From positions 1-58,341 of the forward strand of contig NZ_JADEWC010000022.1 in the NCBI RefSeq assembly GCF_015207825.1: a DNA stretch of 58,341 nt. Reading direction: 5' to 3'. Within the stretch, counting starts at the first letter, position 1; each line of letters opens with the position of its first letter. Source of the DNA: Cyanobacterium stanieri LEGE 03274. GTDB taxonomy: Bacteria; Cyanobacteriota; Cyanobacteriia; Cyanobacteriales; Cyanobacteriaceae. Shown piece by piece: positions 38,871-43,670 of the stretch. The translations under genes and the position numbers were made by a program. Under the pieces are notes generated by a model, which was not told where the DNA came from, searched no databases, and saw only the letters and a list, made by a program, of their open reading frames with translations.

Positions 38871-39227
38871 ATGACAACAGCAACTATTTCTAATCAAGGT
38901 ATTCAATTAAGTCAAAAGGCTCTCGAACACGTTCTTAAACTTAAAGAACAACAAGGAAATGAAGATTTATGTTTGAGGGTTGGAGTTAGACAGGGGGGTT
39001 GCTCTGGCATGTCCTATATGATGGATTTTGAGAATATTAATAATGTTACTGAACATGATGATGTATTTGACTATGAAGGTTTTAAGATAGTGTGCGATCG
39101 TAAAAGTCTTTTATATCTTTATGGACTGATGTTAGATTATAGTGATGCCATGATTGGGGGTGGATTTCAATTCACGAACCCCAACGCTAACCAAACCTGT
39201 GGTTGCGGAAAATCTTTCTCTACTTAA
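38871..39227 (+). CDS. IscA/SufA-type iron-sulfur cluster assembly protein
   Basis: 118-aa A-type carrier that takes part in Fe-S cluster delivery. The three family cysteines are present: [13 protein letters not shown] (first) and [10 protein letters not shown] (second and third). The protein begins after a 10-residue tail with [19 protein letters not shown]. Whether it is IscA, SufA or ErpA cannot be decided. It stands alone, with a strong hairpin after the stop at 39262. Confidence 0.94.
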
Positions 39228-39261
39228 TAAGTATTTTATTTCACTTTTTTAGTATATTTAA

Positions 39262-39299
39262 CCCCCCTATACTTTTGAGCAGTAAGGGGGAATTTTTTT
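39262..39299 (+). terminator. Rho-independent terminator after the IscA-type gene
   Basis: CCCCCT...AGGGGG stem (39262-39268 with 39285-39290) extended by a TA-rich part, followed by seven T (39293-39299). The convergent gene ends at 39302. Confidence 0.7.
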
Positions 39300-39301
39300 G
39301 A

Positions 39302-40282
39302 CTAATTTTCCCCTAAGAGGGGTTGTAAAAAAGTTTTAAAGAAGCACTTTTTAATAATAGATTTAAAGTCGCTAACGGTATTACTAATTTCCTCGGCTAA
39401 ACTATCTGCAAAATTATCGATTTCATTATCTTCATTTAAAGATATTGTTTTTAAATCTTCTTGCCATTTTTCCATCACTTGAGGGTTAATTTTTTCTATA
39501 TTTTCTTCTTCTTGATCTTTATTATTCATACCCCCATCTTTATTAATAGTTACTTCGCCTCGAAAAACTTGAATTAATAATTTTTCTACAGAAACACCAT
39601 TTTCTATGGCTTTAATTTCAATTTCTTCTAATACTTTTAAGGGTAATTTTAATGTTCCTTTTTCTGCATATTTTTCTCCATAAATCATTTTTTTGATTTT
39701 TTTAGCCGTGATACTATGAAAAGGATAAGTATCCAAGACTTCTTGCCATTTTTCGTATAATTCATCCTCCGTTAGTGTGACTAAAGGACGGGCTTGAGCT
39801 TCATTTTGAGGAATAATTCTGAATCCATATTTAATTAGTTGAATAGCAACTCTTGAGGCTTTAATAATTTTGTTTGCTCTCCATACGGGATAATGTATTT
39901 CTTGCTCACAATAGTCTTTAAAGGAATTGTAGGATTCTTTATATAGTTGATAATACTTCACTTGGTGAAGTTGCACACCTAATTTTATATAATTTAGTTT
40001 GTCATATTTAATATTATTAGTAATTTGATTTAATTTTGTATATTTTCTATCTTCTGCCACTAGATAGCAGTCTTCTAAAATTGAGCGGTATGGTTCTGAT
40101 ATATTTTCCCAAAATAATTCATTAATATTTTCTTCTCCACAACTATAAAGAAGGGCGATCGCCGATGGTTGTACATAGTGTAAGTTATTTTTTTTCCCTA
40201 ATAAATATTGCTCATATCTTGGATTTTTATACTGCGTAGCAGATCTTTTTAAAATAGACTTTTGGTCAGTGATCTGATTCAT
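39302..40282 (-). CDS. DUF3102/plasmid-type hypothetical protein
   Basis: 326-aa protein. Residues about 95-200 resemble a domain frequent on cyanobacterial plasmids and phages (KESYNSFKDYCEQEIHYP, then a helix-turn-helix-like VWRANKIIKASRVA, IIPQNEAQARPLVTLTEDE, YEKWQEVLDTYPFHSITAKK). This pattern occurs in DUF3102 or ParB-like accessory proteins; the match here is by memory of the pattern only. The C-terminal third is rich in Glu, Asn and Asp with helices, and the gene is strongly AT-rich. It may be a relic of integrated plasmid or phage DNA. It is flanked by a terminator and the psbA region. Confidence 0.6.
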   Translation of the reverse strand: MNQITDQKSILKRSATQYKNPRYEQYLLGKKNNLHYVQPSAIALLYSCGEENINELFWENISEPYRSILEDCYLVAEDRKYTKLNQITNNIKYDKLNYIKLGVQLHQVKYYQLYKESYNSFKDYCEQEIHYPVWRANKIIKASRVAIQLIKYGFRIIPQNEAQARPLVTLTEDELYEKWQEVLDTYPFHSITAKKIKKMIYGEKYAEKGTLKLPLKVLEEIEIKAIENGVSVEKLLIQVFRGEVTINKDGGMNNKDQEEENIEKINPQVMEKWQEDLKTISLNEDNEIDNFADSLAEEISNTVSDFKSIIKKCFFKTFLQPLLGEN

Positions 40283-40696
40283 TGGTGGATTGATTAGTTA
40301 ATTTGCATTAATAGTACGCCCCTAATACATCTGATGGCTGGGCATTACATTATACATCTTTTTTTATCCTTAACAATCTAGTACAAAAATATCTAATTTT
40401 AGTGTTTATTCCTGATTTTATTGTGATAAAAATCTATTTTTTTTGAATATTTTATTAACCACAACTAATTATTATGAAACTCAAAAGAATTTACTTATTA
40501 ATCAAGTGTAATGATGAAAATACACATTATAAAAATTTTCTAAAATAGATTATGCTCAAGACAAAAAGGCTTTAAGTAGTGAATAATACCAAGAAAATAT
40601 TAAATATTGCATCCTCAGTAATCCTTCCTATAAATAATAAAATACTCCCCTAAAATAGAGAAGTATAATATTTTATTTAGTTAGATTATAAGCAAA
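40283..40696. other. Gene-free psbA downstream region
   Basis: 414 bp, very AT-rich, with no reading frame. It holds the psbA terminator at its right end (40642) and probably the promoter of the DUF3102-like gene at its left end. No tRNA, repeat copy or known RNA motif was seen. Confidence 0.5.
40631..40666 (-). terminator. Rho-independent terminator of psbA
   Basis: Nine-bp stem GAGAAGTAT (40658-40666) with ATACTCCCC (40642-40650), including two G-T pairs, with a seven-base loop. A T-rich run follows on the minus strand. It lies about 30 bp past the psbA stop. Confidence 0.65.
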
Positions 40697-41764
40697 TTAA
40701 CCATTAATAATTGGAGCAGAAACAGGCTCGGCACTAGCTAAATCTAGGGGGAAGTTATGAACATTGCGTTCGTGCATTACTTCAATACCAATGTTGGCAC
40801 GGTTAATCACATCAGCCCAAGTGTTGATGGCTTTTCCCTCACTGTTAAGGATAGAGTGGTTAAAGTTAAAACCATTAAGATTAAAGGCGAAACAAGATAC
40901 CGCAAGGGCGGCAAACCAAATGCCCACCACAGGCCAAGCACCTAAGAAGAAGTGTAAAGCACGGCTGTTATTGAAGGAAGCATATTGGAATATGAGGCGA
41001 CCAAAATAACCATGGGCAGCTACGATATTGTAGGTTTCTTCTTCTTGTCCAAATTTATAACCTAAACTTTGAGATTCAGTTTCAGTGGTTTCCCGAATTA
41101 AAGAAGATGTTACCAAAGAGCCGTGCATGGCGGAGAATAAAGCCCCTCCGAATACTCCCGCGACACCTATCATATGGAAGGGGTGCATTAATACATTATG
41201 TTCGGCTTGAAGAACAAACATAAAGTTAAAAGTACCACTAATACCTAAGGGTAAACCATCGGAAAAAGAACCCTGCCCAATGGAGTAAATTAATAAAACG
41301 GCGGTGGCTGCGGATACAGGGGCGCTGTAGGCAACGCAAATCCAAGGACGCATACCAAGGCGGTAAGATAATTCCCACTGTCTGCCCATATAGCAAAAGA
41401 TACCAATGAGGAAATGGAAAATAATTAACTGGTAAGGGCCTCCGTTATATAACCATTCGTCGAGGGTGGCGGCTTCCCAAATGGGGTAAAAGTGTAGGCC
41501 GATGGCATTGGAACTAGGTACTACGGCGGCAGTAATTATATTATTACCATAAAGTAATGCACCCGATACAGGTTCTCGAATTCCATCAATATCCACGGGG
41601 GGAGCGGCGATGAAGGCAATGATAAAACAGGTGGTTGCTGTTAACAATGTGGGGATCATTAATACTCCAAACCAGCCTATATATAAGCGGTTTTTTGTAG
41701 AGGTAATCCATTGACAGAAATGTTCCCAGCTCGAAATTTTTCCTTGCTGTAGTATTGTTGTCAT
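40697..41764 (-). CDS. psbA: Photosystem II D1 protein, D1' (low-oxygen type) isoform
   Basis: 355-aa D1. Aligned to standard D1 numbering (this protein is one residue shorter at the N-terminus) it carries G80A (NNIITAAVV), F158L (TAVLLIYS) and T286A (GIWFAALAV), the set described for the microaerobic D1' isoform (Synechocystis psbA1 group). P162S beside TyrZ161 and F186L are extra changes. Functional residues are kept: Tyr161, Asp170, Glu189, His198, His215, His272, His332, Glu333, His337, Asp342 and Ala344, so it should form a working oxygen-evolving centre. It therefore differs from ChlF and from rogue D1, which lack Mn ligands. The tail after Ala344 ([12 protein letters not shown]) is removed by CtpA. 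Its promoter lies at 41819. Confidence 0.96.
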
Positions 41765-42089
41765 GATTTCTTTATTTGTGGTGTATTTTTTGTATAGCCT
41801 ATATATTGCTATATTCTTATATTACTTTATAGCGATATAATTGTCAAGTATGATTAGGATAATTTTTACTTATGATATGGGAGAAAAGGCGATCGCCCTT
41901 AATCTGAAATGGAGAAGATTTTTTTAATACCGTGGAATTCGATAGATTAGAGGTTGAGGGGGTAAATTTTTTAAACAGATAAGGATAGAGAATAATGATA
42001 ATATTACAAAGGCGATCAGTGAATGATCTATAAAAGCTGATCCAGGGGCGATCGCCCTTAGTACAATTAAGATTATTTATATATTTAGT
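41765..42089. other. Divergent psbA-serA intergenic region
   Basis: 325 bp. It holds the psbA promoter on the minus strand (41819-41847), the psbA leader with short TATAG-rich inverted sequences (about 41770-41815) and, near serA, two GCGATCGC HIP1 sites. No frame or RNA gene is evident. The serA promoter was not located with confidence. Confidence 0.5.
41819..41847 (-). promoter_or_regulatory. Probable psbA promoter
   Basis: On the minus strand a perfect -35 TTGACA (41842-41847) is followed, after 17 bp, by TAATAT (41819-41824), four of six matches to TATAAT. The start codon is about 55 bp further on. The leader is rich in TATAG palindromes that might bind a regulator. Strength and oxygen control are not readable here. 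Confidence 0.6.
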
Positions 42090-43670
42090 ATGGCAAAAGT
42101 TCTAGTATCAGACTCTGTCGATGAGGCAGGTATTAAAATTCTCACCCAAGTAGCCCAAGTTGACATCAAAACAGGATTATCCGAAGACGAATTAACCGCC
42201 ATCATTCCCGAATATGATGCCTTAATGATTCGCTCAGGCACAAAGGTTACAGAAAAAGTAATCCAAGCGGCCGATAACCTGAAAATTATTGGTAGAGCAG
42301 GGGTTGGAGTTGATAACGTCCATGTGCCATCGGCTACCCGTAAAGGGATTGTGGTGGTAAACTCCCCCGAAGGAAATACCATCGCAGCGGCTGAACACGC
42401 TTTGGCCATGATGTTGTCTCTTTCCCGTCACATTCCCGATGCCAATCAGTCAGTAAAAGAAGGAAAATGGGATCGTAAAAGTTATATCGGTTCTGAGGTT
42501 TACAAAAAAACCCTCGGGGTAGTAGGTTTAGGTAAAATCGGCTCCCATGTGGCAAAGGTTGGTAAAGCCATGGGTATGAAAATTTTAGCCTATGATCCTT
42601 TCATTTCCCAAGAAAGAGCCAATCAATTGGGTTGTACCCTCGTAGATTTAGACATTCTTTTCAGTGAATCTGATTATATTACCCTCCATATTCCTAAAAC
42701 CAAAGAAACCGCTAACTTAATTAACGCCCAATCCCTTGCCAAAATGAAGCCCCACGCCAGAATTATTAACTGTGCTAGGGGTGGTATCATCGATGAAGAT
42801 GCCCTTTATGAAACTCTTAAGGAAGGTAAAATAGGCGGTGCAGCCCTTGATGTGTTTGCCTCTGAGCCTTTAGGGGAATCTAAATTAAGGGAATTGGGTA
42901 ATAATATTATTTTAACCCCTCACCTTGGTGCATCCACCGCCGAAGCTCAAGTAAACGTTGCCATTGACGTAGCCGAGCAGATTAGGGATGTATTACTCGG
43001 ACTTCCTGCCCGTAGTGCGGTGAATATCCCAGGATTAAGCCCCGATGTCATGGAAAAATTACGTCCTTATATGCGTTTAGCTGAAACCCTCGGTAATTTG
43101 GTAGGACAATTAGCGGGCGATCGTGTGGAGAGCTTAAATGTTAAACTACAAGGAGACTTAGCAGATAATAGTAGTCAACCCCTTGTTACTGCCTCCCTCA
43201 AAGGTTTACTATCCAAAGCCCTCCGGGAAAGAGTTAACTATGTTAACGCCGCCATCGAAGCCAAAGAAAGAGGCATCCACCTAGTAGAAACCAGAGACGC
43301 CACCATCAAAGATTACAGTAACTCCATTTACCTCGAAGCCGTTGGCACTAAAGGCACTCACGCTGTAACTGGTGCTTTATTAAACGATGGCGAAATCCGT
43401 ATCACCAGCATCAACGGATTCCCAGTCAACGTTCCCCCCAATACTTATATGTTATTTACCCTCCACCGTGATGTACCAGGTATTATTGGTAAAATCGGTT
43501 CTTTGTTGGGTAACTTTAACGTTAACATTGCCAGTATGCAAGTAGGGCGTAAAATCGTCCGTGGGGACGCTGTCATGGTACTCAGTATCGATGATCCTTT
43601 ACCTGAGGGCGTTTTACCTGAAATCCTCAAGGTAGGCGGTGTTACCGATGCTTATACCGTAAGTTTATAA
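42090..43670 (+). CDS. serA: D-3-phosphoglycerate dehydrogenase
   Basis: 526-aa long-form SerA, first enzyme of the phosphorylated serine pathway (3-phosphoglycerate to 3-phosphohydroxypyruvate). The NAD fold has VVGLGKIGSHVAKVGKAMG, then NCARGGIIDEDAL (the Arg/Glu part of the active site) and LTPHLGASTAEAQ with the catalytic His. An ASB domain and a C-terminal ACT domain (FTLHRDVPGIIGKIGSLLG) give likely serine feedback control. The length is that of the long type. It is the divergent neighbour of psbA. Confidence 0.96.
   Translation: MAKVLVSDSVDEAGIKILTQVAQVDIKTGLSEDELTAIIPEYDALMIRSGTKVTEKVIQAADNLKIIGRAGVGVDNVHVPSATRKGIVVVNSPEGNTIAAAEHALAMMLSLSRHIPDANQSVKEGKWDRKSYIGSEVYKKTLGVVGLGKIGSHVAKVGKAMGMKILAYDPFISQERANQLGCTLVDLDILFSESDYITLHIPKTKETANLINAQSLAKMKPHARIINCARGGIIDEDALYETLKEGKIGGAALDVFASEPLGESKLRELGNNIILTPHLGASTAEAQVNVAIDVAEQIRDVLLGLPARSAVNIPGLSPDVMEKLRPYMRLAETLGNLVGQLAGDRVESLNVKLQGDLADNSSQPLVTASLKGLLSKALRERVNYVNAAIEAKERGIHLVETRDATIKDYSNSIYLEAVGTKGTHAVTGALLNDGEIRITSINGFPVNVPPNTYMLFTLHRDVPGIIGKIGSLLGNFNVNIASMQVGRKIVRGDAVMVLSIDDPLPEGVLPEILKVGGVTDAYTVSL

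Follow-up and report, generated by a model that had tools for sequence, protein, structure and literature searches.

The published signature of D1', the microaerobic isoform of the photosystem II protein D1, is the joint occurrence of G80A, F158L, and T286A, and the isoform and its grouping are said to have been defined by Sicora et al. in 2009 and Cardona et al. in 2015. In Synechocystis, the ChlR regulon brings chlR together with chlAII, ho2, and hemN in one genome. According to the passages cited here, psbA1 of Synechocystis 6803 stays silent in air, and a variant of ChlR, a low-oxygen activator, that is constitutively active binds to its promoter (PMC4500134); the normally silent psbA1 of Acaryochloris rises in micro-oxic conditions, as does an AcsF copy (PMC5295598); and psbA2 of T. 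elongatus responds to low oxygen (PMC9709244). The T. elongatus proteins are described in greater chemical detail in the cited parts of two reports. Thr286 hydrogen-bonds P_D1 in PsbA1 and PsbA3, a bond that is lost with Ala286 in PsbA2-photosystem II, where water takes its place (PMC9709244), and in models of PsbA1 and PsbA2 the distance of residues 158, 172, and 286 to P_D1 or ChlD1 is about 3 to 6 angstrom (PMC12107152).

We compared with these systems a psbA gene from Cyanobacterium stanieri LEGE 03274, encoded in a 58,341-nucleotide stretch of DNA that was analysed whole and is called the window below. The gene and the codons of its most telling residues are as follows.

40697..41764, minus strand: psbA gene, read as D1' type, 355 amino acids, full Mn-ligand set, open frame
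41528..41530, minus strand: Ala80 codon, from the alignment, standard numbering
41294..41296, minus strand: Leu158 codon, from the alignment
41282..41284, minus strand: Ser162 codon, adjoining TyrZ (Tyr161), from the alignment and a DNA pattern match
41210..41212, minus strand: Leu186 codon, from the alignment
40910..40912, minus strand: Ala286 codon, from the alignment

The product is identified as psbA by the NCBIfam equivalog TIGR01151 (731.5 bits against a cut-off of 596). Because one residue is absent near position 12 relative to standard D1, the standard number is the protein's own number plus 1, with Synechocystis D1 (PDB 6wj6) as the alignment reference. Aligned in this way, the protein has Ala80, Gln130, Cys144, Tyr147, Leu158, Tyr161, Ser162, Asp170, Leu172, Pro173, Leu186, Glu189, His190, Val192, His198, Ser264, Ala286, His332, Glu333, His337, Asp342, and Ala344, after which comes a short C-terminal extension of 12 residues. 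A sequence-only reading of this DNA, which named no strand for the gene, had reported that G80A, F158L, and T286A occur together and that TyrZ and all Mn ligands are in place, and the alignment bears out both statements, the latter at Y161, D170, E189, H332, E333, H337, D342, and A344.

The same reading had called the protein D1', and phylogeny agrees. In a quick protein tree of 73 rows, from which the signature columns were removed and 13 rows (psbD, the 11 rogue forms, and the long row L133) were left out together with the incomplete L135, the protein falls inside a clade of 20 (SH-aLRT 97) that holds no ordinary D1 and whose named members are the D1' proteins of Arthrospira sp. PCC 9108 and Synechocystis salina. 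Grouping with the normal D1 copies, the outcome that the earlier reading had named as speaking against it, was looked for, and the protein branches apart from them. The order of the groups was not taken from a psbD-rooted tree, whose very long outgroup branch joined inside the D1' rows and in which the D1' group needed two changes. In the cited portions of two studies, group 3, the microaerobic D1, is recognized by a full set of Mn ligands and by separate branching (PMC6492235, PMC4773611), and we file the protein as D1' because its ligands are complete and it branches separately, with D1' genes of other genera.

As a signature of D1', the triad is carried by the window protein, as claimed, but is less specific than claimed. 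Ala80 and Ala286 are found in all 11 sequences of rogue or sentinel D1 (group 2), a label given here for the loss of Mn ligands, and 9 of the 11 have Leu158 as well; judged from these sequences, the triad is enough for calling D1' only jointly with complete ligands. The triad in those nine would be the one reason to take the window protein itself for a rogue, non-oxygen-evolving D1, and we see virtually no chance of that. Asp170, changed in 11/11 rogue sequences, and Glu333, changed in 10/11, are intact in the window protein, which shows none of the ligand loss by which group 2 is recognized, and the rogue forms make up a separate branch with a support of 100.

Comparison with a same-genus genome (G004) speaks to the history of the gene. 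That genome carries an ortholog 98% identical to the window protein, and its other two psbA copies, at 87%, are ordinary. Between the two orthologs, dN is 0.011 and dS is 0.339 (dN/dS about 0.03), and because such an ortholog exists and is separated by so few replacement changes, the gene, as these sequences tell it, is not a chance variant. A phage origin was considered and found no support, the best phage D1 being 82% identical against 98% for the sister genome. Among 13 relatives compared (Arthrospira is outside the 13), the gene neighbors are common to the window and the sister genome only, and therefore no argument from an operon is possible. Downstream of psbA, a minus-strand frame at 39302-40282 (326 amino acids) has no Pfam or NCBIfam match. 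Elsewhere in the genome of LEGE 03274, two ordinary psbA copies run into contig ends and break off after residue 42 (C28:47411-47536 and C49:2-127; L241, L242), and their missing bodies are probably a repeat collapsed in the assembly. A relative, G007, has an intact D1' gene and also a second D1'-type copy that is broken, with a stop inside (G007:C1:3459592-3460269; L120).

The D1' reading draws directly on the sequence, the clade, the full ligand set, and purifying selection. The best explanation of the whole, in which we have high confidence, is that the gene was inherited vertically and codes for a functional D1' of photosystem II, the psbA1-type, "group 3," or microaerobic isoform.

Where the sequence-only reading went astray was in treating P162S and F186L as additional changes of this one protein, since both belong to the whole clade. 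It had proposed checking whether other D1' proteins carry them, and they do, those of Arthrospira and Synechocystis salina included. Most of the 163 distinct D1-family sequences in our set were collected through their likeness to the window protein. The set comprises 21 with Leu158, Ala286, Pro173, and full ligands, 135 ordinary ones (Phe158, Thr286), and 7 others (two of T. elongatus type, four rogue, and the incomplete L135). Leu186 is present in 21/21 of the D1' sequences and Ser162 in 20, the remaining one having Thr162; among the ordinary sequences, Phe186 is found in all 135 and Pro162 in 133, with Ala162 in 2. The statement about Leu186 is independent of how the 21 rows were chosen, which was by Leu158, Ala286, Pro173, Asp170, and Glu333. 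Eleven positions (80, 158, 162, 172, 186, 192, 286, 289, 292, 293, and 336) split D1' from ordinary D1, and the window protein has the D1' state at 11/11; membership in this comparison was decided for D1' on Leu186 and Ala286 and for ordinary D1 on Thr286 and Phe158, which makes the separation at 158, 186, and 286 partly one of construction. Ser162, Leu172, Leu186, Val192, Ala286, Ala289, Cys292, Phe293, and Val336 are the set of the clade.

Since likeness to the window protein had largely shaped the set of 163, D1 genes were also counted genome by genome. The count covers 60 genomes, that of LEGE 03274 included, and 46 of them yielded a full D1 that could be read; genes truncated at contig ends are outside it, and L032, L173, and L189 missed the reading pattern. 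Of the 108 full D1 genes among the matches listed, 77 are ordinary and 11 are rogue; the D1' genes number 14 of the window's kind and 6 of the T. elongatus kind. Genes of the window's kind were sorted by Leu186, so that residue is theirs by construction, and Ser162, Leu172, and Ala286 occur together in all 14 among the matches listed; the ordinary genes listed have Pro162, Met172, and Phe186 in 77/77 and Thr286 in 75/75 that are readable. The clade residues Ser162 and Leu186 were found in seven family groups of the order and in one outside it. A class-wide DNA pattern for Ser162, with matches in 37/388 genomes, was dropped as a census: many of the 26 matches read fell in other proteins, by eye fructose-bisphosphatase-like and LipB-like ones, and the pattern missed the D1' genes of G006, G013, G021, and G036.

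Could D1' have been retuned in this lineage, with P162S and F186L new in the present organism? Both residues are missing from the 135 ordinary D1 sequences and from T. elongatus PsbA2, which would fit. Their occurrence throughout the clade already refutes the idea, and the window protein has no private residues in the stretch 1-344 other than His16 and Lys25; we give it hardly any weight. A search for the substitution names in part of the literature text, which alignment figures would escape, returned P162S only for Chlamydomonas and nothing for F186L, and this silence does not show that Ser162 and Leu186 are unreported in D1'. Our reading is that the two residues are clade markers of D1' and no oddity of this genome; the gene itself is an ordinary, low-oxygen-type D1.

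What these residues might do can be approached through an alga. In the cited parts of a Chlamydomonas study, P162S and M172L leave growth near that of the control, Fv/Fm is generally lower, oxygen evolution is higher at very high light, and Ser162 is modeled with a hydrogen bond to the backbone of Asp170 (PMC3020971). By analogy, Ala286 in the window protein would remove the hydrogen bond to the P_D1 chlorophyll, Ser162 could add one to the backbone of the Mn ligand Asp170, and Leu158, Leu172, and Leu186 would replace side chains near ChlD1, TyrZ, and the Mn cluster, substitutions that would jointly retune the donor side. It is reasonable to expect the D1' set to act on the donor side and on P680, and single-substitution effects known from the alga or from T. 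elongatus may not be additive in the window protein.

Three further features flank the coding sequence.

41819..41847, minus strand: sigma-70-like promoter, TTGACA-17-TAATAT, 10 of 12 bases, from the upstream comparison
41821..41836, minus strand: operator-like 16-mer ATCGCTATAAAGTAAT, partly palindromic, spanning the end of the spacer and the -10 box and resembling two sites upstream of the second AcsF gene on contig C1
40642..40666, minus strand: terminator-like hairpin 3' of the gene

A like promoter lies before the ortholog in 6/6 other genomes of the window's family that were compared (G006, which has the gene, stood outside the comparison), and both ordinary psbA fragments of the genome have a TTGACA box too. 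Because a terminator-like hairpin follows it, the gene is probably monocistronic, that is, transcribed alone. Sites of this kind also bear on whether the gene is a silent or decaying copy, as psbA1 genes that can be silent in air and the broken second D1' copy of G007 might lead one to think. Here, however, the frame is intact, all ligands are kept, dN/dS to the sister remains low, and the gene has promoter-like and terminator-like sites of its own; silence or decay is accordingly a very improbable account of it, and we continue to read it as functional D1'.

The core of the 16-mer, ATCRCTATWAAG, has exactly three matches across the 3.19-Mb assembly: one lies in the D1' promoter, and the other two lie between the second AcsF and a hemF-like gene. 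A reversed control pattern has three genome matches as well, and only the places of the core are telling, not their number. On contig C1, the two palindrome-like sites are in the gap L249:4434-4778, between the second AcsF and the divergent hemF-like gene. One or two such sites also stand upstream of the second AcsF of relatives, G003 and G014 among them, where no D1' gene was seen in the census among the matches listed. An inverted repeat around the -10 box that was the first candidate (arms 41829-41837 and 41804-41812) is weak, scoring 45 against a best of 44 and a mean of 37 in 300 column shuffles; it keeps 4 to 8 of 9 pairs per sequence, and the 16-mer was preferred to it. When the AcsF upstream regions were put through a crude repeat test, nothing was found; that test lacked a control on the D1' element, and it was by eye that the shared motif was later seen. 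Rfam gave no match over 39000-43000.

The resemblance was scored with a matrix of 16 sites from the AcsF upstream regions of nine family genomes, picked by eye with knowledge of the D1' motif, symmetrized, and used with the tested genome's own sites left out. This matrix puts the D1' promoter first in 6/7 family genomes (the 58-kb window and five of the six relatives' regions of 15-17 kb) and at rank 111 in G013; without symmetrizing, it is first in the window and in 4/6 relatives and second in G008. Within the window, the runner-up site falls in the D1' coding sequence. As an unbiased control against the choice of sites by eye, 285 upstream 16-mers were matched blind to the nine AcsF upstream regions, and a matrix was built for each: five of them, all overlapping the element, reached 5/6 relatives, and 211 reached none. 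Upstream of D1' in other families, the element was not found in 5/6 genomes scanned and was weakly present in G020. We read the 16-mer as a putative family-specific operator common to D1' and the second AcsF, a sharing that hints at common low-oxygen control. One oxygen-responsive regulator would then act on both genes.

How far the Synechocystis arrangement extends to this organism is another matter. Its genome, in 67 contigs in which absence is not certain, has two AcsF genes and one heme oxygenase and no HemN over the cut-off; none of its MarR-type hits is evidently ChlR, those hits being by eye SufR-, ArsR-, and BlaI-like; and the Synechocystis-type set of chlR, chlAII, ho2, and hemN was not found as a whole in these contigs. 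If the trigger for D1' here were something other than low oxygen, such as sulfide, darkness, or high light, or if expression were constitutive, the failure to find HemN, a second heme oxygenase, or an obvious ChlR in the 67-contig assembly would fit, as would the likeness of the promoter box to that of the ordinary psbA copies. We consider this improbable, though less so than the other alternatives raised here, since, in the passages cited, low oxygen draws a response from genes called psbA1/D1' in Synechocystis and Acaryochloris (PMC4500134, PMC5295598) and from psbA2 in T. elongatus (PMC9709244), and since the promoter element common to the second AcsF gene is counted as lowering its odds. 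By analogy with those systems, low-oxygen control of the gene is likely; under low oxygen, the D1' product would replace ordinary D1 in water-oxidizing photosystem II. The promoter element matters as a concrete link between D1' and the second AcsF in a genome whose contigs yielded neither the usual HemN nor a second heme oxygenase.

Set beside known systems, the window protein is closest to the D1' proteins of Synechocystis salina (L038) and Arthrospira sp. PCC 9108 (L037), which share with it A80, L158, S162, L172, L186, V192, A286, and the full Mn ligands and are about 87% identical to it overall; Q130 and C144 of the window protein correspond to E130 and A144 in Arthrospira. The Arthrospira sp. 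PCC 9108 genome holds four ordinary psbA genes and one D1' (L037; L257, L260, L262, L263, L265). Chain AD of PDB 8WQL, an Arthrospira PBS-PSII structure, has a D1' sequence without a difference from the Arthrospira sp. PCC 9108 D1' in the tree columns; either D1' is truly present there or the model was given the sequence of the wrong gene. Ordinary D1 (group 4) is like the window protein in overall protein, ligands, and TyrZ but differs (n = 135) in having G80 (A in 2), F158, P162 (A in 2), M172, F186, I192, T286, G289, T292, M293, and A336.

T. elongatus PsbA2 (PDB 7yq2) is the D1' that has been examined biochemically. It has A80, L158, L172, A286, and complete Mn ligands, as does the window protein, but P162, M173, F186, I192, G289, T292, M293, A336, F147, and P144 set it apart, and it matches the window's clade at only 4 of the 11 diagnostic positions (80, 158, 172, and 286). 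Six further sequences of the T. elongatus kind were found in the surveyed genomes among the matches listed, one of them (L211) with Thr286. Another, L206 (G055), has the Met173 and Phe186 of that kind yet carries Ser162, and for this reason Ser162 probably arose more than once. No genome has both kinds of D1' in the census, among the matches listed, which at these numbers is possibly chance. In a quick free tree, PsbA2 stands beside its own T. elongatus paralogs (support 98); a tree joining both D1' kinds has a likelihood better by 12.8 (p-AU 0.681) and is not rejected.

We tentatively propose, as an idea more doubtful than the D1' assignment itself, that "D1'" covers two functionally different isoforms, of which the window's type is co-switched with the second Mg-protoporphyrin cyclase through the shared 16-base operator in the window's family. 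The type of Synechocystis, Arthrospira, and the window would have changed surroundings of TyrZ and Asp170 (Ser162, Leu186, Val192) together with positions 289-293; the T. elongatus type would have a chloride channel narrowed by Met173 and a pheophytin site altered by Phe147. If this is true, conclusions drawn from T. elongatus PsbA2 miss the commoner kind of D1' (14 against 6 genes in the genomes surveyed, among the matches listed). The T. elongatus protein behind the D1' structural and kinetic work, as presented in the cited parts of those reports (PMC9709244, PMC12107152), is without Ser162 and Leu186, and the two kinds deserve a straightforward side-by-side comparison.
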